From Haloarchaeobius iranensis (GTDB lineage Archaea > Halobacteriota > Halobacteria > Halobacteriales > Natrialbaceae), in contig NZ_FNIA01000024.1 of NCBI RefSeq assembly GCF_900103505.1, positions 1 to 47,068 on the forward strand: a DNA stretch of 47,068 nt. The letters are read 5' to 3'. How positions within the stretch are numbered: the first letter of the stretch is position 1; each line of letters starts with the position of its first letter. Below, piece by piece: positions 22,443-44,090 of the stretch. Position numbers and translations under genes: made by a program. The notes under the pieces were generated by a model, which was not told the origin of the DNA, made no database searches, and worked only from the letters and a program-made list of their open reading frames with translations.

Positions 22443-22465
22443 CTCGAATTCTAATTTGTCACCGT

Positions 22466-22480
22466 GGCTAAAATAACTAA
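22466..22480 (-). promoter_or_regulatory. TATA element of the double-sandwich AAA gene
   Basis: Read on the minus strand: TTAGTTATTTTAGCC. It is centred about 31 nt before ATG 22442, predicting a leader of only a few bases. The two AAA genes therefore have separate promoters in addition to any read-through. Confidence 0.5.
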
Positions 22481-22631
22481 TCTCTCGACTCCAGCACCAC
22501 GCGACGGGTCGGCGCTACTCCTCGGACACCTCGACTCACCACTGTGGGCCCACCTAAACGAAGCAATCCCTGCCCCAGAGGGACCCCTTCCGGGCTTGCG
22601 CTCGCGCTTCAGGCCCCGCGACTAAGAAGCC

Positions 22632-24212: not shown

Positions 24213-25073
24213 TCACAGCTTCGGCATGTCGTCGTCGATACTGCTCTTCTCGTCCGACGACCCACCAATCCCGGGCGTTCCAAGGTTCTCCTCCGAACCG
24301 TCCTCTTCGGTTTCTCCGGAGTCCTCCTCGGGTTCGGCAACCTCGTTCTTCACCGACGATTCGAGCCGGTCGAGTTCGGTGAGGGCGACGGAATCGTCGA
24401 CACGTCTGCGAGCCCGGGAGAACGCTGGCTCAATCGCGTCCCACGACACCGATTGCGGCCGCCTGAAGTAGACGATGGTAGCTCCTAGGACAGTCCCCGT
24501 AAGCCCGACGAGACTCAAGACTGTCGGGTTGGCAAACGGCCCGGTATCGCCTGCCGGCTGTGCACGCTCGTGCCACGGATTCGCCGCAATGTCAGCCGTC
24601 GGTTCGTAGCGCTGGGAGAGCCGTTGTCCCCGCTGCGTGTAGGTGACCGAAATCCACGCGGCGTCGACTGTGGTCGGCTCGAGCGTCTCCAGCGCCACCT
24701 GGAACTGGATGGTGATGGTCTCACCGGGGTCCAAGCGGTCGGTCTCGAAACCACCCCTCCCGACGGGCGTCACGTTCACCTCCTGGTTGCTCGGTATAAT
24801 CGTTGTCCTGAAACTGTCCGGAACGACGAGTGTCTCGTCGGCCCGACCGACATCAATCTGGACGTCACGGAGCGCACTGTCTGTGGCTGCCACGGTCACG
24901 TTCACGGTGGCGGTCTGAGCCGGGGACGAGGGGTCGTACTGTGCCGAGACGTTCACCTCCTCCATTGACGTGACCGACCGATTCTCTGTGGTATCGGCCG
25001 CGACGATACCGCCGGCCAGGATGACGACCAATAGCCCAACTACCACCGTGAGGCGAGTGGCAACTCCGCTCAT
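24213..25073 (-). CDS. Two-pass membrane protein coupled to the tubulin-like gene
   Basis: 286 residues from ATG 25073, whose ATGA overlaps the stop of the tubulin-like gene. Residues ~7-27 form a signal anchor (RLTVVVGLLVVILAGGIVAA). About 150 extracellular residues form an Ig/CARDB-like beta sandwich (TATVNVTVAATDSALRDVQI, DPGETITIQFQVALETLEPT). A second helix (VLSLVGLTGTVLGATIVYF) ends in RRPQS, and a highly acidic cytoplasmic tail follows (EPEEDSGETEEDGSEENLGT). The tight coupling makes it the likely membrane partner of the GTPase; its cytoplasmic tail could recruit filaments or the chaperones. No enzyme motif is visible. Confidence 0.85.
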   Translation of the reverse strand: MSGVATRLTVVVGLLVVILAGGIVAADTTENRSVTSMEEVNVSAQYDPSSPAQTATVNVTVAATDSALRDVQIDVGRADETLVVPDSFRTTIIPSNQEVNVTPVGRGGFETDRLDPGETITIQFQVALETLEPTTVDAAWISVTYTQRGQRLSQRYEPTADIAANPWHERAQPAGDTGPFANPTVLSLVGLTGTVLGATIVYFRRPQSVSWDAIEPAFSRARRRVDDSVALTELDRLESSVKNEVAEPEEDSGETEEDGSEENLGTPGIGGSSDEKSSIDDDMPKL

Positions 25074-27481
25074 TGCTCGCCTCCGTCCTCGACGAGCGGC
25101 CCCGAACCGGGGCGTTCGCCCGCGATACCTTTCGAGGGCGAGGCGTTCAGCGAGCGGTTCGACGCGAAGAGTTCCGGATAGGCGATGCGAGAGTCCAGGT
25201 CGACCGGTTCGCCGAACAGGTCCTGGAGACTGCCATCCTGCCACTCTCTCGTGATGTGGTGGTACTCGGACGCGTTGTCCAGTCGGATCTCATCGAAGAG
25301 CGTCACCAGCGTGATCGAGAACGGGGAATCGACCTCGTCGATGGTCAACCGGCCCCGGATATCTCGTCCGGCCAGCGTGGTCCTGACGGCGGACTCGGAG
25401 AGGAACTGTCGATTCTGGGCATTCGAGATGGTCGCCAGGGTCTCACCCGGATGGTTGTGGCGCTCGATATTGTCCTCGAGTGGTTCTTCGAGTCGGTTCT
25501 CGAGTGCGTAGCGGAGGTGCTCGACCAGGGACTGGCGGTCGATCACCCGTGCCTCAACGAGCTCCGTGAGGTCCGAGGCCGTGGTGATGGTTTCACGGCT
25601 GACCTCGTCGAGTGCGTCGACATTGAGGGGGAGCTGTGCGATTCGACCGTACGATCCGTCGAGCACGGTCTCGGAGATGCTCTCGATTGCCTGCTCGCGG
25701 TCGGTGATCCGGTTTTGGATCTCCGACTGCCGAGATTCCTGTTCTTCCAGGTCGTCCTCCAGGGTCTCGACATGGGTGGTGAGCTTTTCCTCGATGTCGG
25801 CGAGGCATTGGTTCGTCAGCGTCTCCATCGCGTTCTGCTGGGCGACGTACCGATCACGGAGTGCTCGCAGCTCCGCCAGCACGTCTTCGAGTTCCTCTTT
25901 GCTTTGCTTGAGGGACCGACGCTTCCTGAAATGGTAGGACTTGGTGTCCTCTATTCGTGCTTCGATTGCCTGGAGCGAGTCGGCGAGATACGGTTCCAGG
26001 GACTGTTCGAACACCTGGACGGGCGCATCACTCACTCGGTCGAGGGAGACATCCACGTCGTCTGCGTTCTTCTCACAGATGTCTTCGACGCGACTCTGGA
26101 AGTCATTCTCGGCGATGCGGTCGCGCAGCTTCGACCGGGCGAGGGTGAAGAAGACGAACTGTGCGAGGATCTCCTGTGGCGTCTCGTCGTCCGCGGCAGC
26201 ACTCGACTCGGAGACACTGGACGCGTAGGTCTTCGCTTCGCTGGTCAGCGTCGCCGCCTCGCCCTGCTCGAGGCGCACTGCATCGAGACGTTGGCGTGCC
26301 CGGTCGAATGCCGAGGCGACTCGTGAACTGACGACCGTAACGTCCTCCGGGCTGGGTTCCTCAGTCACCGGCATCTCGTCGAGGGCTTGGTAAGCCTGGA
26401 TTCGCTGCTCGAGGCTGTCGATTCGGTTCTCGACCTCGGTCAGAGTCTCGCGGAGTTGGTCGAGTTGCTCAGTGATGTCGAAGTACCGCTTGGCGTCGTC
26501 GATCGGGGCGCGGACGTCGACTGTGTCGAACGTGTAGAGGCGTTCGGTGAGCACGTCCTCGAAGAGGTTCTCGATGCCATCGTCGACGAGCGTGCATCCC
26601 ACCACGACCGACGAGATGGCGTAGTTGACGCCCTCGATGTAGCTGTTCGTCTCTTCGCCCCCGGGAGTGGATGCGTCGCTCCGCTCCTCGTCGACGGGCA
26701 TCACGAACAGCGCATCCAGCGGGGGAGAGTCGCAGGTGAAGGTGTTGGTGCGGAGTGCGGACACCTTCGTTGGGTCAGGGGCCGCTGGCATGTTGACCTC
26801 CATCGGATACGAGGCTTGCATGTCCTGTTGGAGGGTATCGAGGTCCAACAGCGACGCCATCTCTCGGAGGACGATGTTCGAGTTGAGGTAGTAGGCTGGG
26901 TTGGGACCAGGGACCGTCCGCTGTGGGAGGCTGAGTTCGGATACACAGGCGATGCCGAGGAGACGCGCGTCGACCTCGACACTATCGGATATATCTGACA
27001 CTATCTGGTCGAGCATGACGCTCATCAGTGGATACATGCCAGCCCCTGTACCTCCTGCGACCGACGCACAGAGCCAGACGGTCAGCTCGTCGTCCTGCGT
27101 CGTATCGATTGCTGAGCGGATGGTCGAAGTCAACTGGCGGTAGATTCGGTGACTGTGGTACTCGAAGTAGAACCGACCGTTCTTCGGGTCTCGGACTGAC
27201 CCCTGGTTTGCGAGCTCGAGGTCCTCGGATAACCACTTGATCGACCCGTTCTTCTTGAGGCGGTTGAATATCTGCCCCATCCGGTTGTCCTTCTGGAGTT
27301 GCAGTACCTCGAAGTCCCGTGGGAACTCGTCGGTGGGTATCGAGCCGCTGTCGATGACTGCGAACTTCCAGCGTTCGCCGACGCCAGCGTTCGAGACCCG
27401 TCTATCGACGGTCTGTGCGGCACGGTAGCCACCGGTGCCGACGGACACGAACACGTGCTTCCTCGTTGTTTCACTGGGCAT
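25070..27481 (-). CDS. Tubulin/FtsZ-like GTPase with coiled-coil region
   Basis: 803 residues. The N-terminal GTPase part has the first nucleotide loop as VFVSVGTGGYRAAQTV (GTGG, 15-18), FAVIDSGSIPT after it, and the tubulin signature loop CASVAGGTGAGMYPLM (GGTGAG, 143-148). This matches the Tubulin_2-type ('tubulin-like', PF13809) family rather than the cell-division FtsZ. I could not identify a canonical T7 loop. Residues ~334-367 and ~500-605 are predicted coiled coil (LEDVLAELRALRDRYVAQQN). The last ~190 residues are globular. The start ATG 27481 has AGGAG nine bases upstream, so it is not leaderless and the transcript must begin upstream, probably at or before 27788. ATGA coupling to the membrane protein downstream suggests a membrane-linked polymer. 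Confidence 0.88.
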   Translation of the reverse strand: MPSETTRKHVFVSVGTGGYRAAQTVDRRVSNAGVGERWKFAVIDSGSIPTDEFPRDFEVLQLQKDNRMGQIFNRLKKNGSIKWLSEDLELANQGSVRDPKNGRFYFEYHSHRIYRQLTSTIRSAIDTTQDDELTVWLCASVAGGTGAGMYPLMSVMLDQIVSDISDSVEVDARLLGIACVSELSLPQRTVPGPNPAYYLNSNIVLREMASLLDLDTLQQDMQASYPMEVNMPAAPDPTKVSALRTNTFTCDSPPLDALFVMPVDEERSDASTPGGEETNSYIEGVNYAISSVVVGCTLVDDGIENLFEDVLTERLYTFDTVDVRAPIDDAKRYFDITEQLDQLRETLTEVENRIDSLEQRIQAYQALDEMPVTEEPSPEDVTVVSSRVASAFDRARQRLDAVRLEQGEAATLTSEAKTYASSVSESSAAADDETPQEILAQFVFFTLARSKLRDRIAENDFQSRVEDICEKNADDVDVSLDRVSDAPVQVFEQSLEPYLADSLQAIEARIEDTKSYHFRKRRSLKQSKEELEDVLAELRALRDRYVAQQNAMETLTNQCLADIEEKLTTHVETLEDDLEEQESRQSEIQNRITDREQAIESISETVLDGSYGRIAQLPLNVDALDEVSRETITTASDLTELVEARVIDRQSLVEHLRYALENRLEEPLEDNIERHNHPGETLATISNAQNRQFLSESAVRTTLAGRDIRGRLTIDEVDSPFSITLVTLFDEIRLDNASEYHHITREWQDGSLQDLFGEPVDLDSRIAYPELFASNRSLNASPSKGIAGERPGSGPLVEDGGEQ

Positions 27482-27961: not shown

Positions 27962-28057
27962 ATGCTGTTTAGAGTCTCTCAGAACGATGTCGGTCACGCG
28001 CCATCCCGTACCGGATGGGAGCTGCCGCGGGCGTTCTGCATCGTACATGCAGAGTGA
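27962..28057 (+). CDS. Candidate leaderless upstream ORF (31 aa)
   Basis: The predicted transcript start coincides with ATG 27962, which opens a 31-codon frame (MLFRVSQNDVGHAPS...HAE). Its TGA at 28055-28057 overlaps the ATG at 28047 of the HEAT-like gene in another frame. A leaderless ribosome would therefore translate this peptide and could re-initiate at 28047. The peptide has no recognised similarity. The arrangement may be regulatory or accidental. Confidence 0.3.
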   Translation: MLFRVSQNDVGHAPSRTGWELPRAFCIVHAE

Positions 28058-30839
28058 CCAAGCACCCTATCTCGACTCCGATCCTGACCCGCTGGCTGTG
28101 TTGTCTCACCTCGAAGCGGCGATCGAACACACTGCCCCCGAAGTCTTCGACCGTGAGACGGATGACGTCTCCGCGAGCGACCGGATGGCGGCCACCGGAG
28201 CAGTTGCTACCACGGCCGCGGAGCATCCGCTTGCAGCTTCACAATGCGCCCCCCAGCTTCTCACAGTTCTCACCCACGTTACCACCGCCACGGAAACCGA
28301 AGCCTCGCTCACCCAAGGGGAGCGCCAGCGATTAGTACGAGAACTCTGTGGTGCCCTCCGTGACATCGCTACTGAGACCCCATCAGCGGTCTACGACCAT
28401 CTCACCGACCTCCAAACGCTCCTAGCAGCCGACGCCCTCGAAGCGAGAGCTGTCGCAGCAGAGGTCCTCGCACAGGCGGCCGACGAGTATCCCGCCCAAT
28501 TCCAGCACCCCGACGCCGTTCTCAGTGCTACACTCGGCGACTCGCTTGTCTCGATACAGAGACACGGCGCAGACATCGCCGCCACGCTTTGCGCGGAATG
28601 GCCAGCCGAGGTATCCGCGAACATCCCAACACTCATCGACCTGCTCGACGCTGCCGACGACGACCTTCGACAGAAAGCAGCAAACGCAATCCACGAGATC
28701 AGCATCGTCACTCCCAGTCGCGTCGCAGAAGACACAGACGTCTTGGGCGCTCACTTACGCGATAGCGACGGCCACTTTCGCTCCCTCATCATACTCGTCT
28801 TTCTCGAACTCGCAGAGGTCGACCACGAGGCCATCTGGAACTACGCAGACGATATCAGATGGAATCTGACGCAGAGCCACGAATCAGCCCGAGAGCGAGC
28901 AGGCGTGTTGCTCGCTCGACTCTCGATTCTGTCGACAGAGAAACTACCAACACTCGTGGATATCCTCGAGACTGCGCTCAAAGTCGAAACCACCGAAAGT
29001 CTCTCTATTCCCGTACAGCAGTTGGCGAACATTCATCCGGCACCCGCCACGGAGCTGTACGACCTGCTCCTCCAGGAAGCCACAGGCGAAGATTGGGAAC
29101 TCGACACACGGGAAGACTTCATCATCGCTGCCTACTGGATTACCGAAGCCACTGACGCTGTCCCAGCCGAGGAGACACTAGAGCGACTGAAACCTGTCCT
29201 TTCGTCCGAGCACGCAGCCCTCCGTGCGGCCGTCGCACTACTATACTTGGAAGTACACGAAATCGCGCCAACGAAGGTAGAGAACACCCTGCGCGCTCCT
29301 GGTGAAGCGGCGTCCGAAGATCTTACCGAACTCGCTTGGATCGATACCGATGCGTTCGACGAGCAGGCCACGGCGCCAGTACTGAAACAGATACAATCAC
29401 AGGCCGAATCCAAGGTCGGTGAAGTCGACACTACACCGCCAGATACAGCTGACCTGATCGAACCGACGTACACCTGGGCACGAAAGGAGAACCCTTCGGT
29501 GGTGCTACAACGTGCAGTGGACGCGATGCAGCGTGAGGACCGAACGGTGCTTGCTGAGATTGATGAGGTCGTTTCGTATCTCAGCCGGAACTCGAGAGTC
29601 ACGCAGCGTGTAGCCATCCGTGTCTTCTACCTGGCGAGCCTGAAACACCCCCAGCAGGCTGCTCGGCATCTCGATGAGGTGTTGGACCTTACCACCAGTC
29701 CGTTTACACAGATCCGGCGATCCGCCCTCTGGATCGTCTTGACTCTCGTTGATAATAACCCAAAGCCTGTCGTTGAAAACCCCGAGCCGTTCCTCGATGG
29801 GCTCACGCACGAGGATAGACTCACCCGTCAAGCAGCGGCGTGGACCCTGGTAGAGATCAGTTCACGCGAGACGTCCGGCCTCGCGGCAGTTGTCGACCAG
29901 TTGATCGCAGCAATCGAGACGGAGCACGTGCTGAGTAGTTTCGCCGTTGAGGTTGTCCTAGCGGACATCGTCGCCACGAATCCAGAAAGCCTTCAACCAC
30001 ACACCGGGCCGCTGCTAGAGAAGTTACAGTTGGGGCTTCGAGCCGACCCTGACGAATTCAAGACGGTCGATTCACTGGTTGACTTAGAGACTACAGAGGC
30101 CGAAGACGAAATCTCACTGTCACTGTTTCCCATGAAGGAATTCCTAAACGACCAGAACCGCATTGATGAACGTCCACTGATGTCTGCCCTCCTGTCCCTG
30201 TTCTTGTTCGACTCATCACTCAGCGTAAAACACAGTGACGGCATTCGTGACCTTCTGGGCGGGGCTGCCAGAGATACGAAACAGGGGTTGTGGCTGCTCG
30301 GGCTCACGGCCAGAGCAGGCGAACCGGGCGTAGCGGAATTCGCTGAGGACATCTCTACGCTTTTGCTGACCGAAAAGGCCCTCAACCCACAAGTGACCGA
30401 AGAGCTCGCAGACTGTCTCGTTTCAGTTACTGACGTCATCCCTGCTGCATTCGTTCCGTGGGTGGATGAACTGATATCGAGACTGTTAGAGATCGAAGAG
30501 ACAGCAGCGACGGATGCAGACCACCACGGTCTCGTAACCGCGCTCCTTGGACTTATCTCGGCGTGTCTCACAGAGATGGACCCGGAGAGATATCCAACAC
30601 CAGATCGGTTCCTCGCGTTTCTCAAGTATGATGACGATGCTGGGAAACACGCAACCAGTATCCTCGGACGATTAGTCGACACGTATCCGTCAGAAGGTGG
30701 CGAGGCACGGGAAGCAATCGTCGAATGGTGTGCCAGTAGTCAAGACACTGCGGACTTGGTTGGGGCCGTCGAGTTTCTAACCAGGACTGGCTCGGTATCG
30801 ACGCTCAACGAGACCTTCGAAACGGCCCATGAAGACTGA
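28047..30839 (+). CDS. HEAT-like alpha-helical repeat protein 1
   Basis: 930 residues (950 if ATG 27987 is used; that extension is Arg/Ser rich and unlike the rest, so 28047 is preferred). It is built almost wholly of paired amphipathic helices of about 40 residues, for example ARAVAAEVLAQAADEYPAQF, DDDLRQKAANAIHEISIVTP, AAWTLVEISSRETSG and VTEELADCLVSVTDVIPAAF. These HEAT/ARM-like solenoids act as scaffolds or adaptors; no catalytic motif is seen. The stop overlaps the next gene by 11 nt, so both proteins are probably made together and may pair. Codon use is less GC-rich by eye than in the flanking kinases. Confidence 0.85.
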   Translation: MQSDQAPYLDSDPDPLAVLSHLEAAIEHTAPEVFDRETDDVSASDRMAATGAVATTAAEHPLAASQCAPQLLTVLTHVTTATETEASLTQGERQRLVRELCGALRDIATETPSAVYDHLTDLQTLLAADALEARAVAAEVLAQAADEYPAQFQHPDAVLSATLGDSLVSIQRHGADIAATLCAEWPAEVSANIPTLIDLLDAADDDLRQKAANAIHEISIVTPSRVAEDTDVLGAHLRDSDGHFRSLIILVFLELAEVDHEAIWNYADDIRWNLTQSHESARERAGVLLARLSILSTEKLPTLVDILETALKVETTESLSIPVQQLANIHPAPATELYDLLLQEATGEDWELDTREDFIIAAYWITEATDAVPAEETLERLKPVLSSEHAALRAAVALLYLEVHEIAPTKVENTLRAPGEAASEDLTELAWIDTDAFDEQATAPVLKQIQSQAESKVGEVDTTPPDTADLIEPTYTWARKENPSVVLQRAVDAMQREDRTVLAEIDEVVSYLSRNSRVTQRVAIRVFYLASLKHPQQAARHLDEVLDLTTSPFTQIRRSALWIVLTLVDNNPKPVVENPEPFLDGLTHEDRLTRQAAAWTLVEISSRETSGLAAVVDQLIAAIETEHVLSSFAVEVVLADIVATNPESLQPHTGPLLEKLQLGLRADPDEFKTVDSLVDLETTEAEDEISLSLFPMKEFLNDQNRIDERPLMSALLSLFLFDSSLSVKHSDGIRDLLGGAARDTKQGLWLLGLTARAGEPGVAEFAEDISTLLLTEKALNPQVTEELADCLVSVTDVIPAAFVPWVDELISRLLEIEETAATDADHHGLVTALLGLISACLTEMDPERYPTPDRFLAFLKYDDDAGKHATSILGRLVDTYPSEGGEAREAIVEWCASSQDTADLVGAVEFLTRTGSVSTLNETFETAHED

Positions 30840-33825
30840 AAACCCGCGTCGAACGGCAAGAGAGCTCGCACTGCAAGCTTCGCGGAATCCCGACCTCTCC
30901 CAAGCGGAGCTGCGAGAAGCATTTGACCTGCTCGAAACCGACCTACGCGGTGATTCAGCGTTCGAGGCCGTTGAAATCCGGAAATATGCCGCGGAGACGA
31001 TTCTCGCAGTTAGCTTCGAGCAGACAGCGGCCGTCACGGAGTACACTGACCGACTCATTACACAGATTAAGACCCAACAGGAGGTTCTGACACAGTCTCC
31101 CGTCGTGTACGAATCGACGAGTCTCATCAGTACCCTCATCAACGTACAGGAGTCCTTGCTGCAGGCGATGAAAGAGGTTGCTCGGACAACGCCGGCTGCA
31201 GTACGGGAGTCTATCGAGGCTCTCGTCCCGGTGTTCGCAGAGGATGGAATGTACCCTGAGCTCACCTCGGCGTTCCTCAATCTGGTTGACGTCTTCGTTA
31301 TCAGTGAGAAGAACGCGGTCGACATCGACCCGTCGCGATTCTGGGGTCTCGTCGGCGCAGGCGACGAGTCACTGACTGCAAGCGCTCTCGGCCTCCTCCA
31401 ATCCCTGCACAAACATGGCCGTATGAGTGTCCTCTCGGACAAGCAGACACTCGTCGAGGAGCTCGAGACAGGGTCGCCGTCAGGGCGACGTGCTGCAGCC
31501 GAGTTAGTCAAAGTCGCCGTCGTCGAGTCTGGTCCAGACGGACTGCGGGACCTGCAAGAAGCGCTTGAGTCGCAACTCGAAGCCTCGAACGTCGAGGTAC
31601 GGCTGTCCGCGCTTTTCGCGCTGTTTGTCTTCCCGAACATCAAGAAATCAGCGTACGAACCAGAGGTCGAGAGTGGGCTGGCGGCGATTGCTGACTCAGA
31701 CCCGGAAGCACAGAAGGCAGCCGTGGACGTGTTCTCGGACTTCGCGGATGTCGCTCCAATCACACGAGTCCCAATCGAGGCGTTGGTCTCGTTGCTCAAT
31801 TCCGACGATCAGGTAACCACGATATCGGTGAGGATACTCCTGGGAGAAATTGCGGAACGGCAGCCCGAGAAGGTAGCTGAGTATCTTGGCGCGTTCGCCG
31901 AACCGATCGGGAACAGTGGCTACAGCGAGCGCAGTAAATTCACGTCGCTCTCGATTATCTACCAGCTGGCGATGCAGGACCCTGGGTTGGTCGTGCCAGT
32001 CGTTCCGACAGTTGCGAATGAAATCGGCGGGAGCAGTGCTATGCACCAGGGGCATCAGCGACGCGTGAAGTCCCAAACCGAACTGTATTCGCACGCAACC
32101 GACGCCGATCCACATCTTAAACACAGCAGTGAAACCATCCGCTCGTCACGCGTCTTCTCCTCCTTAGTCGGCCGGTCGGGGTTCGATGTCGAGTGGGAGT
32201 TGCTCCCGGAGTATCTTGCCGTGCTAATCTTGCTACGGGTCTCCCAAGACGAAATTCGACCGGTTGCGGAGGTGTCCTCGGAGATCGTGTCCGGGGTTAA
32301 CTCCCCTTCCGAGAAAGTCCGGAGCACGACGATCTCGATCCTCAGTTCGATCACCGAGTCCCATTCGCATCAGGTCTCCCCCCATCTTGGATTTATCCTC
32401 GATTCGATCACGCAATCTGGAGGCGACAGCCAGACGTTGGACCAGACGGACCTTCGTGGACTCTTCGTCATCTTCAGGACCGTCATCGACTCGTCTGAGG
32501 CGTGGTGGTTGTCCTCCCGCGACCTCGACAAGTTCTTCATACTACTTGACGCCGAGTTCGACGACAGTGTCGCATACCCGAGCCTTGGCAGACGACTTGC
32601 GCTCCGTATCCTGACGAGTCTGCTCTTTCGGTTGCTCATTGAATCATCGACGCTTGGAAGTAGTCCCGGCGACGGGGGCGACGCAGAACACGACCTCGAG
32701 GAGTCGAACAGCACCGACACTCCGTCATTGAACCCAGACACGATCCGAGAGGAGATCAGTGAGAAGCGCATTCAGGACCTGGTTGCCCTCGGCGAGGCAG
32801 GCTCACTGTACGAACGAGAGAAAGTCCTCAAAATCCTCTTTCTGGTCACTCCCAGCAGCTGCGAGCAGATTGTCCCCCACGTGTCGACCTGTGCAGAGTG
32901 GGGACGCGAGACAGCACCCGACCGCGCCTTGGACCCCGACAAAGACGTGGCACTGGATGCGGATGTTACGGCCGAGCAGGTCGAAGACACCGACGGGAAT
33001 GCCAACCTCCGCAGGCTCGGGCCGCACCTGAGCAGTGACATTGACACTGTTCGAGCGAAATTGGGCAATCTCTACATGGCCGTCGGCAATGCACAACCAA
33101 CCGCACTCGTCCCAGTACTCGACACCCTCCTCGACCTGGCAGCGGACACTGATCCAGAGGTGTCCCAGACTGCGCTGTCTGCACTTGAGGAGGCTCTCGT
33201 TGCCCACCGAGCACTCAGCACGGACCTCATGGAGACGGTAACGTCACAACTGATACATGGTGACCCGGAGGTCGAAGAAGAAGCTGCGCACCTCCTTTCT
33301 GTCGCCGTCTCGGAGGCGACCGAACCGGCCACAGCCGAGATGTCCGTCATCACGGTCGCATTCAAGCAAGCATCGTCTGTTGCTGCCCGCCTGTTCCTCG
33401 CACGCTCGATATCGATCATCGCTGAAAGCCATCCAAGCGAAGTCATCTCCATAAGCTCTCATCTCACCACCGAGCTCGAAGCCGCCATCCCAGACACACT
33501 CCAGCAGCGCGACACCGATTACAAGACGGGCGGTGCGGACTTGCTGGGAGCCGACCGCACCCACAACATGGTGCTCGTCCGTCGATACCTCTACCGTGCA
33601 TTGGAACACTGCCTCTCGGTCCCTGAACTCACGGACCAGTGGTCCCCACAAGTGTTACAGGACATCATCAGGGCTGCTCCCGAGATAGCCCCCACCGCTG
33701 CCCGACGCTACGTCGCATACCACGAGGATGCGTCCGGGGACCTGATGACTCCCGACGAACTCGCCTCTAGTCTCGAAACCGACATCCAAGAACGAACCAA
33801 AGCAATCCTCCAGAACGAACTCTAA
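30829..33825 (+). CDS. HEAT-like alpha-helical repeat protein 2
   Basis: 998 residues of the same helical repeat type: EVRLSALFALFVFPNIKKSA, DPEAQKAAVDVFSDFADVAP, TISVRILLGEIAERQPEKVA, DPEVSQTALSALEEALVAHR and DPEVEEEAAHLLSVAVSEAT. Helix pairs end in short Asp/Pro loops, as in HEAT repeats. A low-complexity acidic segment (~620-650) interrupts the solenoid. It overlaps the upstream HEAT-like gene by 11 nt and has a similar size, suggesting an ancient duplication followed by strong divergence. It is convergent with the zinc-site protein gene, only 30 nt away, with a small hairpin between. It is likely a scaffold subunit; partners are unknown. Confidence 0.85.
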   Translation: MKTENPRRTARELALQASRNPDLSQAELREAFDLLETDLRGDSAFEAVEIRKYAAETILAVSFEQTAAVTEYTDRLITQIKTQQEVLTQSPVVYESTSLISTLINVQESLLQAMKEVARTTPAAVRESIEALVPVFAEDGMYPELTSAFLNLVDVFVISEKNAVDIDPSRFWGLVGAGDESLTASALGLLQSLHKHGRMSVLSDKQTLVEELETGSPSGRRAAAELVKVAVVESGPDGLRDLQEALESQLEASNVEVRLSALFALFVFPNIKKSAYEPEVESGLAAIADSDPEAQKAAVDVFSDFADVAPITRVPIEALVSLLNSDDQVTTISVRILLGEIAERQPEKVAEYLGAFAEPIGNSGYSERSKFTSLSIIYQLAMQDPGLVVPVVPTVANEIGGSSAMHQGHQRRVKSQTELYSHATDADPHLKHSSETIRSSRVFSSLVGRSGFDVEWELLPEYLAVLILLRVSQDEIRPVAEVSSEIVSGVNSPSEKVRSTTISILSSITESHSHQVSPHLGFILDSITQSGGDSQTLDQTDLRGLFVIFRTVIDSSEAWWLSSRDLDKFFILLDAEFDDSVAYPSLGRRLALRILTSLLFRLLIESSTLGSSPGDGGDAEHDLEESNSTDTPSLNPDTIREEISEKRIQDLVALGEAGSLYEREKVLKILFLVTPSSCEQIVPHVSTCAEWGRETAPDRALDPDKDVALDADVTAEQVEDTDGNANLRRLGPHLSSDIDTVRAKLGNLYMAVGNAQPTALVPVLDTLLDLAADTDPEVSQTALSALEEALVAHRALSTDLMETVTSQLIHGDPEVEEEAAHLLSVAVSEATEPATAEMSVITVAFKQASSVAARLFLARSISIIAESHPSEVISISSHLTTELEAAIPDTLQQRDTDYKTGGADLLGADRTHNMVLVRRYLYRALEHCLSVPELTDQWSPQVLQDIIRAAPEIAPTAARRYVAYHEDASGDLMTPDELASSLETDIQERTKAILQNEL

Positions 33826-36755: not shown

Positions 36756-37152
36756 CACTACCGGGACGGTGCGACAGCGCTGGCAGCTCTGCACGTGGGC
36801 GAGCGGTCGGATTTGAATCGAGGTCAGAATAATACCACACGAAACCCAATTATCCGGGCTGATACGCCCGACCGCTTGTACTGGTGAAGCGAGTGATATC
36901 ACACCGCAGGTTGTCAATTTCCGTCAGTCCACGTAAAAACAACCTGTGTTCGTCGCACCGAAGAACACTCAGTCCCCCTCATTCGGTCGGCTCACGGTCG
37001 GAAACACATCCAGTACCTGGCCCGTGCCTAGAGCATTCGTGACGGCCAACAGCAACCTGACACCCACCAGTTGGCTGTTCACAGGGCAGTGGAGCAACAG
37101 ATCCTGCTGTCTCTCCCTACCCAAACCACCAACACACCCGACCGATGAGATC
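36756..37152. other. Divergent intergenic region
   Basis: About 400 bases lie between the minus-strand unit and the ubiquitin-like gene. A plus-strand A/T run (gtaaaaaca, about 36933-36941) could be a TATA element with a leader of nearly 200 nt. The open plus-strand frame before 37153 is Ser/Thr/Pro rich and lacks acidic residues, so it is not taken as coding. No RNA gene was recognised. Confidence 0.4.
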
Positions 37153-37377
37153 ATGAAAGTCCCAATATCGATCGACGACGAGACGTTCAACATCACCGAT
37201 GACACGACCGTCGCAGACCTCAAACGGCGAGTCGGTTGCAACGATGACTATGCACTCGTGTACAGAGATGACCAGACAGTACTGGTTCTCGACGACGACG
37301 CCATCGTGGCTGACCACGTCGAACCGCAAACCACCCTAGAAGTCCACCCGCTCTCAGACAACTATGTCTTCCGCTGA
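37153..37377 (+). CDS. Ubiquitin-like beta-grasp protein
   Basis: 74 residues with the order expected of a ubiquitin fold: an N-terminal beta hairpin (MKVPISIDDETFNITDD), a helix (TVADLKRRVG), then strands and turns (YALVYRDDQTVLVLDDDAIV, ADHV) and a last strand (TTLEVHPLSDNYVFR). The pattern resembles small prokaryotic ubiquitin-like proteins such as YukD-type and ThiS-type folds. The C-terminus ends VFR and has no Gly-Gly, so it is not ready for classical conjugation. The stop overlaps the ATG of the E2-like gene by one base (TGATG), a strong sign of a functional pair. Fold assignment is by pattern only; a structure prediction would settle it. Confidence 0.7.
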   Translation: MKVPISIDDETFNITDDTTVADLKRRVGCNDDYALVYRDDQTVLVLDDDAIVADHVEPQTTLEVHPLSDNYVFR

Positions 37378-37784: not shown

Positions 37785-37973
37785 CACCCATCTGGCGATC
37801 GAACCGGGCGCTCGACTACTCTCGCCTCTTCGCCAGCAAACAGGAACATAGCAGGGAGGCCAAGGCAAGGTATAGTTAGTTCAACTGTCGCCCTCGTGCG
37901 ACGTCACTTGGGTCGTAACCACATCGACCCAACCACCTTGCTATCGCACTACCTTCATCGCGAACGGAATCGC
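37785..37973 (+). promoter_or_regulatory. Intergenic with TATA-like element
   Basis: Contains a TATA-like run (ggtatagttag, 37869-37879) about 25-30 nt before 37898 and no convincing gene. A GTG at 37896 is in frame with the next gene and would add 26 basic residues. The acidic, conserved start at 37974 is preferred. Confidence 0.35.
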
Positions 37974-38366
37974 ATGTCACTCGACTGGCCCGAAACTTTC
38001 GACCGAACACCACCCGACAACCGCGAACCGTATCCACACCATTTCCAAGTCTCGTTGGAGCGCGCCTTCGGGAACGTCGTCACCCAAGTCGACCGATTGG
38101 AAGGCGCGGAGTTAATCGCTATCGAGACCGCTTCCGGAGCAACTGCCGGTCCACCAGCCACGACGGGCGATATCGAGAACCCGGGCGTCGTGGTGCGGTT
38201 CAGGAACGACGGTGTCGTGTATGCCGTCCCCTGTGACCGGTGGGCTGCACTTCGCGACAACGTCCAGGCGGTCGCCAAGTACCTCGAAGCGAAGCGCGCC
38301 CTCGACAGATACGGGGTCGAAACGCTCACCGACGAGTTCGCAACCCAGAAGGTCAGACTCGACTGA
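37974..38366 (+). CDS. J-domain-protein N-terminal-like domain, without a J domain
   Basis: 130 residues. LDWPETFDRTPPDNREPYPH opens the protein and is followed by FQVSLERAFGNVV, ENPGVVVRFRNDGVVYAVPC and DRWAALRDNVQAVAKYLEAK. This matches, from memory, the N-terminal domain of a group of plasmid, phage and archaeal J-domain proteins (LDWP..W.RT, DPG...., CD.....RDN..A). In those proteins an HPD-containing J domain follows; here the protein ends where it would begin, and no HPD motif is present. The next gene's ATG overlaps the stop by one base. Given the GrpE and Hsp70 genes downstream, it may be a client adaptor of the local Hsp70, though it cannot stimulate ATPase like a J protein. Confidence 0.6.
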   Translation: MSLDWPETFDRTPPDNREPYPHHFQVSLERAFGNVVTQVDRLEGAELIAIETASGATAGPPATTGDIENPGVVVRFRNDGVVYAVPCDRWAALRDNVQAVAKYLEAKRALDRYGVETLTDEFATQKVRLD

Positions 38367-39409
38367 TGCCTGACAACGCTCCGAGCAACGATCCGCGAAA
38401 TCACCCCTCGCCGCAGCACGGCTACGAGCGTACTGCCTGTCGAGCGGACGGTGGGCGGTCGACTCGTGGCTGGGCAGACGGGTTCGACGGCTGGGCCGCC
38501 GCAGCGAAACCGGAGTCGACCGACGCCGAGTACAGTCGAAGCTTCCACTGGTGTCACGCCGGCGAGCGTCGAGAGCTGACGCTCTCGATCCCCGTTGGCA
38601 CGTACGACTACTGCGTGAATCGCGCGCGCACCGGCGACTACAGACAGTACGTCGTCGACCCGCTCCAGGAGCCGTTCATCGCCACTGTCGCCGAGGATAT
38701 CGAGGAGACCATGCCCGGAGGGACCGCGCGAGACACGGTCACCAGCTGTGTGCGATTCGTTCAGAGCCTCGAGTACATCCGCGACCGCGAGGACACGGGT
38801 CACGAGGCCTACCCGAAGTACCCGGTCGAGACGCTGGTGCATCAACGCGGCGACTGTGAGGACGGGACGTTACTGCTGTGTGCCCTCCTGGAGACACTCG
38901 GCTACGACACGGCGGTGCTGGTCCTCCCAGCCCACCACCACATGGTTGCTGGCGTCGCGTGTGACTGGGGTCACGGGGCCAGCGTCACCCATCAAGGCAC
39001 CCAGTTCTTCACCGTCGAGACGACCACCAGTGGCTGGGATATCGGCGAGCTTGACCCACAGTTCCAGGGGTCGCCCGTGGACGTGCACCGCCCGGACGAT
39101 ACGCCGATACTCGTCCACCAGTGGGACGCCACCCCGACAACGGAGACCGGTGTGACCGTCACCGTCCACGCTGCAAACTTCGGAAGTGCACCCGTCGAGG
39201 ATGTCCAAGTCCGCTTCCTGTTCGAACGTCGGAACGGAACCATAGCAGAGCGTGTCTGGTTGGGCGACGGTAGTCGAACGCTCGCGGCCGGCGAGTCCAC
39301 GCAGTTCATCCGTGATATCGTGCCGCCACCGGACTTGCAACTCCGTGGGCGATGTCGCCTCATCGCTGCTGGCGCGCTCCACGACGAAAGCGAGAGCGAG
39401 TGGCACTGA
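38366..39409 (+). CDS. Transglutaminase-like protein with C-terminal Ig-like domain
   Basis: 347 residues. After a polar N-terminus, residues ~100-230 form a transglutaminase/protease-like core: YPVETLVHQRGDCEDGTLLL with Cys164 in the GDCED motif, AHHHMVAGVAC with His192, and FTVETTTSGWDIGEL with Glu218 as the likely third residue. The C-terminal ~90 residues (TGVTVTVHAANFGSAPVEDV) look like a CARDB/Ig domain. Such Cys-His-acid folds cut or cross-link peptide bonds. No signal peptide is present, so it acts inside the cell and could cleave or modify cluster components, perhaps the ubiquitin-like protein. It is coupled to the preceding gene (TGATG) and 42 nt before the GrpE-like gene. Confidence 0.83.
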   Translation: MPDNAPSNDPRNHPSPQHGYERTACRADGGRSTRGWADGFDGWAAAAKPESTDAEYSRSFHWCHAGERRELTLSIPVGTYDYCVNRARTGDYRQYVVDPLQEPFIATVAEDIEETMPGGTARDTVTSCVRFVQSLEYIRDREDTGHEAYPKYPVETLVHQRGDCEDGTLLLCALLETLGYDTAVLVLPAHHHMVAGVACDWGHGASVTHQGTQFFTVETTTSGWDIGELDPQFQGSPVDVHRPDDTPILVHQWDATPTTETGVTVTVHAANFGSAPVEDVQVRFLFERRNGTIAERVWLGDGSRTLAAGESTQFIRDIVPPPDLQLRGRCRLIAAGALHDESESEWH

Positions 39410-39451: not shown

Positions 39452-40900
39452 ATGTCCGAAAATCGACGAAACCAGACCGACCCTGACGGGGCCGAATCGA
39501 TGACCGACGACGACGAAAACGAACAAGCCGACACCCAGGCACCGGAATCCACAGAACGCGTCGACCAGCAGGCACCGCTCGGTGACGTGGGGGAGCGGAG
39601 CATCGACGGCGACAAATGGCGACAGCGACTCGCCCAACTGAAAGTCGACAGGGCTATCGCCACATCCGACGAACAGAAGAAAGCGCTCACTGACAAGATC
39701 GAAGACCTCAGAGCGCGGATGCACGACGCTGGCGTGCCTACTGACGCCCCCGATGGAGAACCCAGTACGGACACCGAATCACCCGACAAGTCCACCGATT
39801 CACAATACCAACCCACCGAGCAACATCCCATCGACGCCGATGACGACAACGAGGAGGGAGCGACGGACTCGACGGGAGCTGCCGGCTCGGACTCACCCGG
39901 GTCGTCGAGCGACGCGGACTCCGTCCCCGGGAAGTCGCAACACCAGATGGGAGCTGAGGGGACGGCCAGTGCCGACTCGCCGAGCGAACTCACGTCGGAC
40001 AGCAACACCACCTCACAGGCCCAGTCTGAGGAGGCACAACAGCCCGACCAGTCACCCGAAGACGGCATTGACCGGGAACGTGCTACGGACTCGGAGCAAG
40101 AACCAACCGAAGCGCGCTCTCCTCGGGACCAGGACGTTAGCCAGACGCCCGAGCCCGATGCCTCACCAACTAATCCCACGCCCGACCCAAACGAGTCCAC
40201 TCCTGAACGTGCTCCGAGCCCGACATCCACTCCAACCGAGAACACGCAGGAAACGGATTTCGAGGACACGCAGGACACCGATTCCGACCCGGACCCCGAC
40301 TCGGGACCGAAACTCGAGTCACTCGAAGAGTCCGATGCCGGGGCAGATGACCGCGCGGATTCACATCCCACGTCGAATGCACACCTGTCACTCCGTGACG
40401 ACCGTGGGGGAGAGTCGACACCATCCAACGACCAGCGGAACGACGCGACCAGCAGAACCGAAACTCTCGCTGAGGAGGTCTCGGTGCTCCAGACTCAGCT
40501 CGAGACCCTCGGGACGACAGTCGACGAGTATCGCCAGAAGAACGAGCGCGAACACGAAATCCTCCAGAAAGAAGCTGTCGAACAACTCGGTGAGCGCATG
40601 CTTCGGGTCCGCGACACGTTGAACCGTGCTATCGAGTACAACGAGTTCGACGACGACCAGGCCGCGATGCTCGAAGCAGTCGTCACGAAGTTCGACCAAC
40701 AGTTCACCGCTGGTGCCATCGACAAAATCGATCCGGACCCTGGCGACGAGGTCGACGACCTCCGCCATGCACTGGCGGGACCGCGCGAAGAGACGACTAC
40801 CGTTCCCCCAGGCTGTATCATCCGTGTCGAATCCCCCGGCTTCGAGATCGACGGCTACCCGTTACAGGAAGCGGAAGTCATCGCCGCAAAGCGGAAGTAA
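39452..40900 (+). CDS. GrpE-like protein with long acidic extension
   Basis: 482 residues. The last ~140 residues match GrpE: a coiled-coil dimer helix (EEVSVLQTQLETLGTTVDEY; LGERMLRVRDTLNRAIEYNE), a helix bundle, and the beta head ending PGCIIRVESPGFEIDGYPLQ then EAEVIAAKRK (compare GrpE ...PG.V..V..PGY......L.PA.V.V). GrpE exchanges ADP for ATP on Hsp70. About 340 residues before it are an acidic, Ser/Thr/Pro-rich disordered stretch with one short helix (~50-90). The extension is several times longer than in normal GrpE. Together with the J-like domain upstream and the Hsp70 at 42411, this gives a dedicated chaperone set. GAGA before ATG 39452 is a weak ribosome site. Confidence 0.82.
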   Translation: MSENRRNQTDPDGAESMTDDDENEQADTQAPESTERVDQQAPLGDVGERSIDGDKWRQRLAQLKVDRAIATSDEQKKALTDKIEDLRARMHDAGVPTDAPDGEPSTDTESPDKSTDSQYQPTEQHPIDADDDNEEGATDSTGAAGSDSPGSSSDADSVPGKSQHQMGAEGTASADSPSELTSDSNTTSQAQSEEAQQPDQSPEDGIDRERATDSEQEPTEARSPRDQDVSQTPEPDASPTNPTPDPNESTPERAPSPTSTPTENTQETDFEDTQDTDSDPDPDSGPKLESLEESDAGADDRADSHPTSNAHLSLRDDRGGESTPSNDQRNDATSRTETLAEEVSVLQTQLETLGTTVDEYRQKNEREHEILQKEAVEQLGERMLRVRDTLNRAIEYNEFDDDQAAMLEAVVTKFDQQFTAGAIDKIDPDPGDEVDDLRHALAGPREETTTVPPGCIIRVESPGFEIDGYPLQEAEVIAAKRK

Positions 40901-41101: not shown

Positions 41102-42319
41102 ATGAGCGTGGAAATAGACGCCGAACTGAGTCAAGCACTTCCGGCCGGCAGCGGCCGGACGACGCTCGCGGCAACGATCATCCCTACTGACAAACAACAG
41201 CCGACGAAACGACACATCGCTGTCGTGGTCGACGTGAGCGGGTCGATGTCGAAGGACGTCGCGTTCGTCGACGACACGCCCGCAAAGATCGAACTGGCCC
41301 GCCAAGGCGTCGCGAAGCTCCTGACCGAGATGCACGAGGACGACCAGCTCAGCATCATCGCGTTCGACTCTACCCCTGACGTCTTGGTGCCGATGACCGA
41401 GTGGGGAAACGCAGACCACGACCAGATTGAGACCACGGTCACCGGCACGCCGGGCTCGGGGTACGACGGTGCCCTGGACGCCGGCGGCGGGACGAACATC
41501 AAGCGCGCAATCCAGACCGCAGCCCAGCAGTTCACGGCGGACGGCGACGGCGTCGTGAGCAAGGATATCGTCCTCCTGTCCGACGGGATGGACCGCCGTG
41601 ACCTCGACGAGTTCAGACAGCAGGCCGATACGCTGGATTCGAAGGGTATTACCGTCAGTGCAGGCGGAATCGGCCGGTCTTACAACGAAGACGTCCTCCT
41701 GGCGCTCACGAATGGGACTGGTGGGTCGGCCGAGCATCTGGAAGCGCCACGTGACATCGAGTCGTTCCTCCACGACAAAGCCCAAGATGCCCGAGACACC
41801 GTGGCACCTAACCCCCAGCTCCGCTTCGAGTTCGCCGACGGCTTCAGAATCGCCCCCGGCGAGCCGGCGTACCTCACCGAACCGCAGGCGACTTCGGAAC
41901 CGGTCTCGACTGACGGCAGCACCGCTGTTGTCGACCTCCCGAAACTCACCGCCGGAGAACGCATCCGCCTCACCGTCGAGGTGCTCGGCGGTCACAAGTC
42001 CACGGGCATGATTTATCCGATGGCCGAACTCTTCGTGGAGGACGACGCCGTGTTGGCCTCGACGGCAGTCGAGGTCCGATACGAGGATGACCCGACGAAG
42101 CGTCTGGACATCGAGAAGGAGCGCCTGAGTGGCGACATCACGACAGACATCATCGACCCGGAGGTCGAGAAAGCAACCATCGAGTCCCGCATCGACAGCA
42201 TCGAACACGACCGCAGCTGGAAACACCTCGCGGCCGTCCTCCGTAAGCGACTGGCGGACGCCGAAGCCACGGGCGGGAACATCGCCGTCTCGAAAGCGAA
42301 GTACGACCCCGACGACTAG
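41102..42319 (+). CDS. VWA-domain protein with intact MIDAS
   Basis: 405 residues. After a short beta region (SVEIDAELSQALPAG), residues ~36-205 form a von Willebrand A domain with the full metal-ion site: DVSGS (D44, S46, S48), GGGTNIK (T131) and LLSDGMD (D161). The rest is a beta-rich domain (ELTVEVLGG-like; RIRLTVEVLGGHKSTGMIYP) and a C-terminal helical tail (EVEKATIESRIDSIEHDRSW). VWA domains of this type bind protein ligands through a bound Mg2+. VWA genes have been linked by gene context to a family of FtsZ/tubulin-like proteins in a predicted membrane-remodelling system, which matches the gene set here. Confidence 0.92.
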   Translation: MSVEIDAELSQALPAGSGRTTLAATIIPTDKQQPTKRHIAVVVDVSGSMSKDVAFVDDTPAKIELARQGVAKLLTEMHEDDQLSIIAFDSTPDVLVPMTEWGNADHDQIETTVTGTPGSGYDGALDAGGGTNIKRAIQTAAQQFTADGDGVVSKDIVLLSDGMDRRDLDEFRQQADTLDSKGITVSAGGIGRSYNEDVLLALTNGTGGSAEHLEAPRDIESFLHDKAQDARDTVAPNPQLRFEFADGFRIAPGEPAYLTEPQATSEPVSTDGSTAVVDLPKLTAGERIRLTVEVLGGHKSTGMIYPMAELFVEDDAVLASTAVEVRYEDDPTKRLDIEKERLSGDITTDIIDPEVEKATIESRIDSIEHDRSWKHLAAVLRKRLADAEATGGNIAVSKAKYDPDD

Positions 42320-42410: not shown

Positions 42411-44090
42411 ATGAGCTACTTAGGAATCGACCTCGGGACGACTCGCAGTGGTGTCGCGGTTGTCGAAGCCGACGACCCAACGCTGTTACAGAACAACGCT
42501 GGTGACCGACTGACCCCGTCAGTCGTGTACTATCGAGACGACGACGACGACGTTCTCGTGGGGAAGCCAGCGAAGAACAAGCAGAAAGAGCAGAACGACC
42601 GCATCGTCACCGACGCGAAGCGTCGGATGGGCGACGACCACGTGTACGCAATCGACGGAGAGGAGTACACGCCAGCAGCGGTCTCGTCAGAGGTGCTCAA
42701 GCAGCTGAAGGACGACGCAGAGGAGTTCGAGGATGACATCTCGGGTGCCCACATCACGGTGCCGGCGTACTTCACGGTCGACCAGAAGGGAGCCGTCAGG
42801 GAGGCCGCCGAAATCGCCGGGTTCGATGAGATTGACCTCCTCCACGAACCGACTGCTGCCGCCATCGGTCACGGGTTCGACCAGGAGATGAACGAGACGG
42901 TATTCGTCTACGACTTCGGTGGTGGAACCCTCGACATCTCGCTGATGGATGTCGAGGGTAACAGCTTCGACATCCTCGCGACCAGCGGCGACACCACCCT
43001 CGGTGGCATCGACTTCACCGAGGCAATCATGGACCTGTTGGCCGACGAGTTCGAACAGAACAACGGCATCGACCTGCGCTCGGACCCAGAAGCTAGAGAG
43101 AGCCTCCGCGCCGAAGCGGAGCAGGCCAAGATCGACCTCTCCGGGCGCGAGGAGACAGAGATTAGCGCACCGCTCCTCGGTCAGATCGACGACGAGGTCG
43201 TCGGGATCACCGAACGTGTCCTGCGTCGCTCCGAGTTCGAGTCTGCCGCCTCCGGACTGCTGGACCGCGCCATCGATCCCGTCGAGGATGCGCTCAAGAA
43301 GGCCGATATGGATGCCGAAGACGTCGACACGGTCCTCCTCGTCGGTGGGTCGTCGAAGATTCCAGCGGTGCAGGAACAGCTCACTGACTTCTTCGGTTTC
43401 GAGCCGACGAAGACCAACGACCTCGCCAAGGTGGTCGCGAAGGGCGCAGCCATCGTGGCCGACCTCGAGGACGGCATCGATGAGAAGTACGTCTGCCCCG
43501 AGTGCCCGCAAGGGTTCGACTACTTCGACGACCTCAACGATCACCTCTCGACGCACGACCCGGACGACGGCATCGCGTGCCCGTACTGTGATGAGGTCTT
43601 GGATACGAAGGGCGACCGCGAGGACCACATCGGCCTTGAGCACCCCGGAGAACTCGGTAGCGGCGGTGAAGAAGGCGGGAAGTATCCCACTGGAAAGAAG
43701 AAGATTCTATCGCGGTCGCTCGGCACTGACCTGGTCGGTGCACGCATGGATATCCTCATCGAGGAGGGGTCCGAACTGCCTGCCACTGCAACAGAACGGT
43801 ACGTGCCGACCGCCGACGACCCTGAACAGATTCCGGTCCACGTCTACCAGGGCGAGGACGTGGAGAACCTCTACTCGAATGAGAAGCTGAAGGACTGGTA
43901 CGTTGAGGATATCCCGGAGACGGAGAGTGGCCGTCCGACCATCGCTGTGACGTTCGAAATCGACGACGACGGCCTGCTCGAGGTGAGTGCAGAACTTGTC
44001 GACAGCGATAAGAGCGTGTCTACGACGGTCGACAGAATCACTGGCAGCCGGTCAAACGGTACGTCGAAGGGCCCCGCTGACGACGACTAG
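42411..44090 (+). CDS. Hsp70 (DnaK-like) with two C2H2 zinc fingers in the interdomain linker
   Basis: 559 residues. The nucleotide-binding domain is complete: SYLGIDLGTTRSGVAVVEA, GAHITVPAYF, EPTAAAIGHGF, VYDFGGGTLDISL, GDTTLGGIDF and VLLVGGSSKIP. In place of the usual hydrophobic linker come two classical zinc fingers, C362-X2-C365-X12-H378-X3-H382 and C390-X2-C393-X12-H406-X4-H411. The beta substrate-binding domain follows (LSRSLGTDLVGARMDIL, VHVYQGEDVENLY, IAVTFEIDDDGLLEVSAEL). The alpha-helical lid is missing, since the protein ends about 20 residues later. So this is not the housekeeping DnaK. Zinc fingers at the allosteric hinge could sense zinc or a protein partner. ATG 42411 is preferred over an in-frame TTG two codons upstream. 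Confidence 0.93.
   Translation: MSYLGIDLGTTRSGVAVVEADDPTLLQNNAGDRLTPSVVYYRDDDDDVLVGKPAKNKQKEQNDRIVTDAKRRMGDDHVYAIDGEEYTPAAVSSEVLKQLKDDAEEFEDDISGAHITVPAYFTVDQKGAVREAAEIAGFDEIDLLHEPTAAAIGHGFDQEMNETVFVYDFGGGTLDISLMDVEGNSFDILATSGDTTLGGIDFTEAIMDLLADEFEQNNGIDLRSDPEARESLRAEAEQAKIDLSGREETEISAPLLGQIDDEVVGITERVLRRSEFESAASGLLDRAIDPVEDALKKADMDAEDVDTVLLVGGSSKIPAVQEQLTDFFGFEPTKTNDLAKVVAKGAAIVADLEDGIDEKYVCPECPQGFDYFDDLNDHLSTHDPDDGIACPYCDEVLDTKGDREDHIGLEHPGELGSGGEEGGKYPTGKKKILSRSLGTDLVGARMDILIEEGSELPATATERYVPTADDPEQIPVHVYQGEDVENLYSNEKLKDWYVEDIPETESGRPTIAVTFEIDDDGLLEVSAELVDSDKSVSTTVDRITGSRSNGTSKGPADDD

Follow-up and report, generated by a model that had tools for sequence, protein, structure and literature searches.

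Our analysis of a haloarchaeal contig almost certainly identifies an Hsp70 (P0001) that carries two C2H2 zinc fingers at the linker between its two domains, lacks the helical lid, and represents an architecture conserved in related proteins. The window analyzed is one entire contig, C52, which is 47,068 bases long and comes from a haloarchaeal draft assembly in 73 contigs. The initial annotation had described the gene as an Hsp70 with two fingers at the linker and no lid, and this was borne out by the domain matches and by an insert of 78 residues where the alignment gives E. coli DnaK 11, between DnaK positions 382 and 394 (Table 1). P0001 belongs to the Hsp70 superfamily, matching Pfam HSP70 (PF00012) at 2.1e-114 and 383 bits against a cut-off of 20.6. 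It fell below the DnaK equivalog thresholds of NCBIfam, with 391.2 bits against 648 and 374.9 bits against 822.55. The closest solved relative, Geobacillus DnaK, covered residues 3-351 and 435-545, and the C terminus lies only 14 residues past the substrate-binding beta domain (SBD beta), so that the lid is absent. The structure matches shown for the AlphaFold2 model of the whole protein (18 sequences; mean pLDDT, 76.8) were Hsp70s. A different contig of this genome (L001) encodes an ordinary DnaK next to a J-domain gene; P0001 is 47% identical to this DnaK in the nucleotide-binding domain (NBD) and 32% identical in the SBD beta.

Table 1. Coordinates in the window of the Hsp70 gene, its predicted parts, and the linked genes
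Feature	Coordinates	Strand	Evidence and remarks
Lidless Hsp70 carrying two C2H2 fingers (P0001)	42411..44090	+	559 aa; ATG at 42411, stop at 44090
Hsp70 NBD, aa 1-352	42411..43466	+	ATPase residues complete
C2H2 finger 1 (C362, C365, H378, H382)	43494..43556	+	Pfam, pattern, homologues, profile, AlphaFold2
C2H2 finger 2 (C390, C393, H406, H411)	43578..43643	+	Pattern, homologues, profile, AlphaFold2; PF00096 alone misses finger 2
Low-confidence stretch rich in Gly and Glu, with the degraded remnant of the linker (KKK replacing LLD of VLLLD)	43644..43703	+	Alignment, AlphaFold2
SBD beta, aa 432-545	43704..44045	+	Structure-relative match, alignment
vWA protein; MIDAS-type residues D44, S46, S48, T131, D161 invariant in 5 aligned	41102..42319	+	Linked in 7/8
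Exchange factor of GrpE type; N-terminal region long and polar	39452..40900	+	Pfam GrpE 8.5e-17, aa 322-479; linked in 8/8
Transglutaminase/peptidase-like protein; C165, H191/H193, E219 invariant in 3 aligned	38363..39409	+	Pfam matches sub-cut-off; linked in 7/8
Small conserved protein, no family	37896..38366	+	Linked in 4/8
Tubulin_2 (FtsZl1-type) protein	25070..27481	-	Pfam 1.9e-7; within about 20 kb in 7/8
Membrane protein adjoining tubulin-like gene	24213..25244	-	Signal/TM segments by eye; related genes in G214, G238, G033, G030

The fingers sit just N-terminal of the linker remnant, with the spacings C362-x2-C365-x12-H378-x3-H382 and C390-x2-C393-x12-H406-x4-H411. Pfam zf-C2H2 (PF00096) matched P0001 at residues 360-382 (2.4e-6; 28.1 bits; cut-off, 25.2) and detected finger 1 only; in the whole-genome scan the score was 23.9 bits, which is under the cut-off. 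Finger 2 is supported by its pattern, by homologues and by the profile, and not by PF00096 on its own. A chance origin of the pattern was rejected by shuffling five inserts 20,000 times each: the two patterns never appeared together, and one pattern appeared in 28-51 cases. A finger-module profile made from six loci retrieved C2H2 proteins from the PDB, among them Aart (3.6e-35), PRDM9, CTCF and TFIIIA. AlphaFold2 predicted beta-beta-alpha units at residues 357-381 and 388-410 of P0001 (block pLDDT, 59-71), and the same two units were obtained when the finger module was modeled alone (6 sequences; pLDDT, 76.9). When the predicted module was compared with the PDB using Foldseek, the top matches were C2H2 proteins, with a best E value of 3.6e-3, a TM score of about 0.4 and none at or below 0.001; the C2H2 proteins among the matches shown were nearly all DNA-binding. 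Judged by the conserved ligands and the predicted beta-beta-alpha fold, the two units are C2H2 fingers, and zinc binding is predicted for them. The pLDDT fell below 50 at aa 412-431, the stretch joining the fingers to the linker remnant, which in the model is probably a flexible tether.

Classical fingers such as those of Zif268 and CTCF share with the module the ligands, the x12 spacing, a Phe/Leu core in most first fingers and the predicted beta-beta-alpha fold; unlike them, the fingers described here are acidic, have no TGEKP linker and are embedded in a chaperone. Elsewhere in the same genome, the product of a gene at L147:1483-2616 (G000:C71) has, as judged by eye, a single C2H2 finger at its N terminus, followed by repeats and an HNH-like end, and this gene is a possible source of the fingers.

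We examined the distribution of the protein with a profile of the fingers and the substrate domain. Seven matches were found in 391 Halobacteria genomes (E values up to 1e-38), six of them fingered and one (G030) fingerless; the clade is therefore rare. Among all 125 available genomes of the family to which the window belongs, three scored 305-331 bits and the rest 118 or less. The plasmid collection added Haloplanus rubicundus pCBA1112-01, which together with the seven genome-scan members makes up the eight clade members; plasmid p117 of Halorubrum sp. BOL3-1 corresponds to G202, and both plasmids are complete records. The plasmid search gave 80 matching records; among the 20 listed, 2 spanned 80% or more of the query with the fingers included, and the remaining 18 matched in the substrate domain only. 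The clade thus consists of eight haloarchaeal Hsp70s, with fingers at one shared position in seven: two fingers in six members, one of the CxC type in G229 and none in G030. The initial annotation had asked whether other Hsp70s carry such insertions and whether the finger residues are conserved. Both were found to be so in 7/8 members, where the ligands are kept; Cx1C, Cx2C, Cx4C and Hx3-4H loops vary, and x12 is constant. Over the x12 residues, five two-finger members showed 31% pairwise identity (74/240), G214 being omitted as a near-copy of the window; the identity of the ligands in this comparison follows from the search pattern itself.

Searches elsewhere gave little. A phylum sample yielded no new clade member (3/294 matched, all already in the clade set), and a scan of genome contigs with the single protein as the query found no relative. 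The scan of genome contigs with the vWA alignment recovered one clade member, from Halorubellus salinus, its other matches being distant vWA proteins of bacteria; Bacteria were covered for the finger architecture by the genome-contig scans and the plasmid collection. A virus-borne origin was without support: the viral contig scan confirmed none, and none of the 33 records that matched in the phages collection spanned 80% of the query, those among the matches listed covering the substrate domain only. Since the window is one contig of a draft assembly, an assembly error or a recent nonfunctional domain insertion had to be considered, the former having been named by the initial annotation as one finding that would overturn its reading. 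Either is highly improbable. The matching architecture occurs on two complete plasmid records, in a single-contig 3.04-Mb genome and in other independent genomes, so it is not an assembly fusion; moreover, the fingers of the window and G214 differ over 57 codons by 6 silent changes and 1 replacement.

In the tree, the eight Hsp70s formed one clade (100/100) apart from DnaK and other lidless Hsp70s. A weakly supported branch (75/12) set the seven fingered members apart, so a gain of the fingers after G030 would take one change; the end branch of G030 is long. Three further haloarchaeal Hsp70s without a lid (L042:4863-6449, L044:1-1578 and L045:4107-5669), all fingerless, formed a clade of their own (100/98).

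Nine ATPase residues (D8, T11, T12, K70, P143, E171, D194, T199 and D201) were kept in all eight clade members, and the ATPase domain of P0001 accordingly looks to be in working order. Three further residues were replaced in each of the eight: R151 (by K/T), R167 (by D/E/H/T) and Q378 (by V/Y/M). The linker motif VLLLD was likewise lost in 8/8, with D393 alone staying in 3/8. R151 serves as a relay between the Hsp70 domains; R167 and Q378 are J-domain contact residues, and their replacement also sets the clade apart from DnaK. As passages of PMC8215388 describe, D35 of DnaJ hydrogen-bonds R167 and Q378, which thus hold the aspartate of the J-domain HPD motif, and linker residues 386-393 raise the ATPase activity 40-fold. 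Bacterial Hsp70s avoid indels at domain-domain contacts (sections of PMC8910936, in which the word "linker" does not occur), so an insertion at the linker is unusual.

The fingerless G030 shows the losses of R151, R167, Q378 and VLLLD too. The loss of the J-site therefore came with the clade and not with the fingers, which would be either a later refinement or a feature lost in G030. The initial annotation had suggested that a sensor at the linker could rewire the Hsp70 cycle: a rewired cycle gains support, since the linker motif and the three residues are replaced in 8/8, but G030 and the probably flexible tether tell against the fingers as the cause. Loss of the lid alone does not explain the changes either, since L042, L044 and L045 keep R151, R167, Q378 and a VVLLD-like linker. 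In the substrate pocket, V436, I438 and I472 are still hydrophobic, and I401 is replaced by Thr in 8/8, so the choice of clients by the clade Hsp70s may be altered.

The Hsp70 gene belongs to a linked gene set (Table 1), in which the pairing of FtsZl1 (Tubulin_2) with vWA was found in 7/8 members. G229 is the exception, without linked vWA, transglutaminase-like and tubulin-like genes. The family of the membrane protein beside the tubulin-like gene was found in five genomes. No J-domain gene (PF00226) was found near the cluster in any of seven genomes, and none was found on the contig of the cluster in six of the seven; in the single-contig G033, the nearest one lies about 380 kb away. All genomes tested encode a canonical DnaJ at another location. 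The transglutaminase-like gene was rejected as a marker of the whole set because 11 further haloarchaeal loci carry it without the other parts nearby; two of the lidless Hsp70 loci, L042 and L045, were also without other parts.

Several other genes were observed. At least 11 more haloarchaeal proteins of the transglutaminase-like family (L109-L119) are encoded outside the gene set. After the Tubulin_2 gene, at 20670-24071 on the minus strand and thus opposite to the Hsp70 operon, lie two genes for AAA proteins (AAA and AAA_lid_3 matches), and BOL3-1 and G229 have related AAA genes in the vicinity of their clade members. Beside the tubulin-like gene, two overlapping genes (27987-30839 and 30829-33825, plus strand) encode very long proteins with HEAT/adaptin repeats, which are shared with G214. 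The operon starts with a small protein (36946-37377) with a sub-cut-off match to ubiquitin-like SAMP2 (E, 0.0021), and a transposase-like gene fragment, recognized by eye, lies at the contig end (46784-47068, minus strand).

The lost helper-docking site together with the fingers suggests that this Hsp70 is recruited to its targets by another route. As a plausible but still tentative reading, we propose that it is an Hsp70 dedicated to a vWA/FtsZ-like (Tubulin_2) gene set of haloarchaea, independent of J-proteins and with fingers that recruit in cis. The Hsp70 would cycle with its own linked GrpE and without a J-protein. Because the ATPase appears intact and a GrpE gene is nearby, yet the J-site and the linker coupling are gone, the finger pair may replace the targeting role of the J-protein: on its flexible tether between the domains, it would do in cis what a J-protein does in trans, namely, bring the Hsp70 to a partner. 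That partner would probably be a protein of the same gene set, since the finger module is strongly acidic and has no TGEKP linkers. ATP turnover might then remodel or gate the assembly of a vWA/tubulin-like complex near the membrane. Without a lid, the protein would bind clients fast and weakly, and finger avidity could supply the dwell time. Recruitment through the fingers is itself a tentative part of the proposal. G229 has one finger and none of the linked vWA, transglutaminase-like and tubulin-like genes; G030, although fingerless, carries the gene set and shares the losses, so the system does not require the fingers and cis recruitment is not universal. Against J-protein independence, the canonical DnaJ encoded elsewhere in every tested genome could act through an altered interface. 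The wider claim, that this is an Hsp70 branch without J-proteins that kept GrpE and in which a zinc-finger pair at the hinge recruits the ATPase to one vWA/FtsZ-like assembly, is one we regard as rather doubtful.

DNA binding and sensing by the fingers are both possible. Tandem fingers could bind DNA or RNA and so tether the chaperone to a transcript, an invader or a plasmid, a reading that draws on the finger profile and fold, which are nearest to DNA-binding tandem fingers, and from the presence of the gene set on plasmids in Halorubrum sp. BOL3-1 and Haloplanus rubicundus. However, most solved C2H2 structures bind DNA, which biases the PDB matches, and a TGEKP-type linker is absent, with an inter-finger spacing that varies from 4 to 10 residues. 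The net charge of the module was -4 to -13 in the six members computed and -6 to -13 for two-finger modules. Haloarchaeal proteins are acidic in general (per residue, -0.11 to -0.25 for the fingers and -0.13 to -0.16 for the whole proteins of the same members), so this charge is weak evidence against nucleic acid binding. On balance, we consider such a tether unlikely. An allosteric sensor, with fingers that fold or unfold in response to zinc, redox state or a ligand and thereby switch the coupling between the ATP state and the substrate domain, is quite unlikely. The initial annotation had suggested a zinc or protein sensor, and its location was correct: the insert lies exactly at the coupling element, and the linker and R151 are changed in 8/8. 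Nevertheless, fingerless G030 has the same coupling losses, a classical C2H2 ligand set usually forms a stable structural zinc site and not a reversible sensor, and nothing found shows sensing of zinc or of a protein. A low-confidence, probably flexible stretch also fits recruitment by a module on a tether better than allosteric sensing by a stiff one.

The gene set as a whole may serve in membrane remodeling (parts of PMC2875224) or in biological conflict (parts of PMC7159879). The latter would be an anti-invader system of the type of Kaur et al. 2020, with tubulin, vWA and HSP70/GrpE assembling when an invader is sensed, and would be compatible with recruitment through the fingers. The sections of PMC7159879 consulted describe GTPase-centric (GAP1-N2) neighborhoods with tubulin and vWA in one theme and HSP70 and GrpE in another, and the patchy distribution and plasmid carriage fit such a role. 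Those themes, however, do not overlap, and they have a GTPase among their components and, typically, a DnaJ domain, whereas the window combines tubulin, vWA, Hsp70 and GrpE, with neither a GTPase nor DnaJ found. Pfam scans of 30 window proteins, several of them without any family, gave no GTPase/GAP1 or OmpA-like match, and PADLOC gave no match for 10 window proteins, the Hsp70 included. A conflict role is possible but less likely than not. The FtsZl1-vWA sets of Makarova and Koonin 2010 (parts of PMC2875224) share with the window Tubulin_2/FtsZl1, vWA and membrane proteins; their GTPase and OmpA parts were not found in these Pfam scans. DnaK, GrpE and Hsp70 have 0 occurrences in the main text of PMC2875224.

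In the usual view, an Hsp70 needs J-proteins to reach its targets and to trigger its ATPase, and its coupling needs a short conserved linker. A natural clade with intact ATPase residues, a GrpE gene, a replaced linker, an erased J-site and fingers at the hinge would test which parts of the Hsp70 cycle are indispensable, and it would also offer a handle on the untested archaeal FtsZl1/vWA gene sets. Compared with canonical haloarchaeal or bacterial DnaK, P0001 shares the NBD fold, the ATPase residues and the SBD beta and differs in the two fingers at the linker and in lacking the lid, VLLLD, R151, R167 and Q378. L042, L044 and L045 are likewise lidless specialized paralogues but, unlike P0001, are fingerless, with a normal-looking J-site and linker. 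HscC, another specialized paralogue, which has its own J-proteins and has lost GrpE contacts (passages of PMC8215388), shows the reverse of the pattern in the finger clade. In the literature searched, which included few subscription papers, we found no description of the finger-bearing Hsp70 and none of an Hsp70 run by an exchange factor and a cis adaptor. Read from sequence, the finger-bearing Hsp70 is a real, conserved and rare protein, a new arrangement of known parts. A different association of GrpE with Hsp70 was seen in Halomicrobium sp. LC1Hm (plasmid pLC1Hm-01; L100:11974-15456), where the product of a 3.5-kb "grpE" gene also matches the Hsp70 substrate domain and, at about 1,160 residues, may be a fusion of GrpE with Hsp70; G059, G114 and G041 contain related open frames, each ~1,180 residues long.
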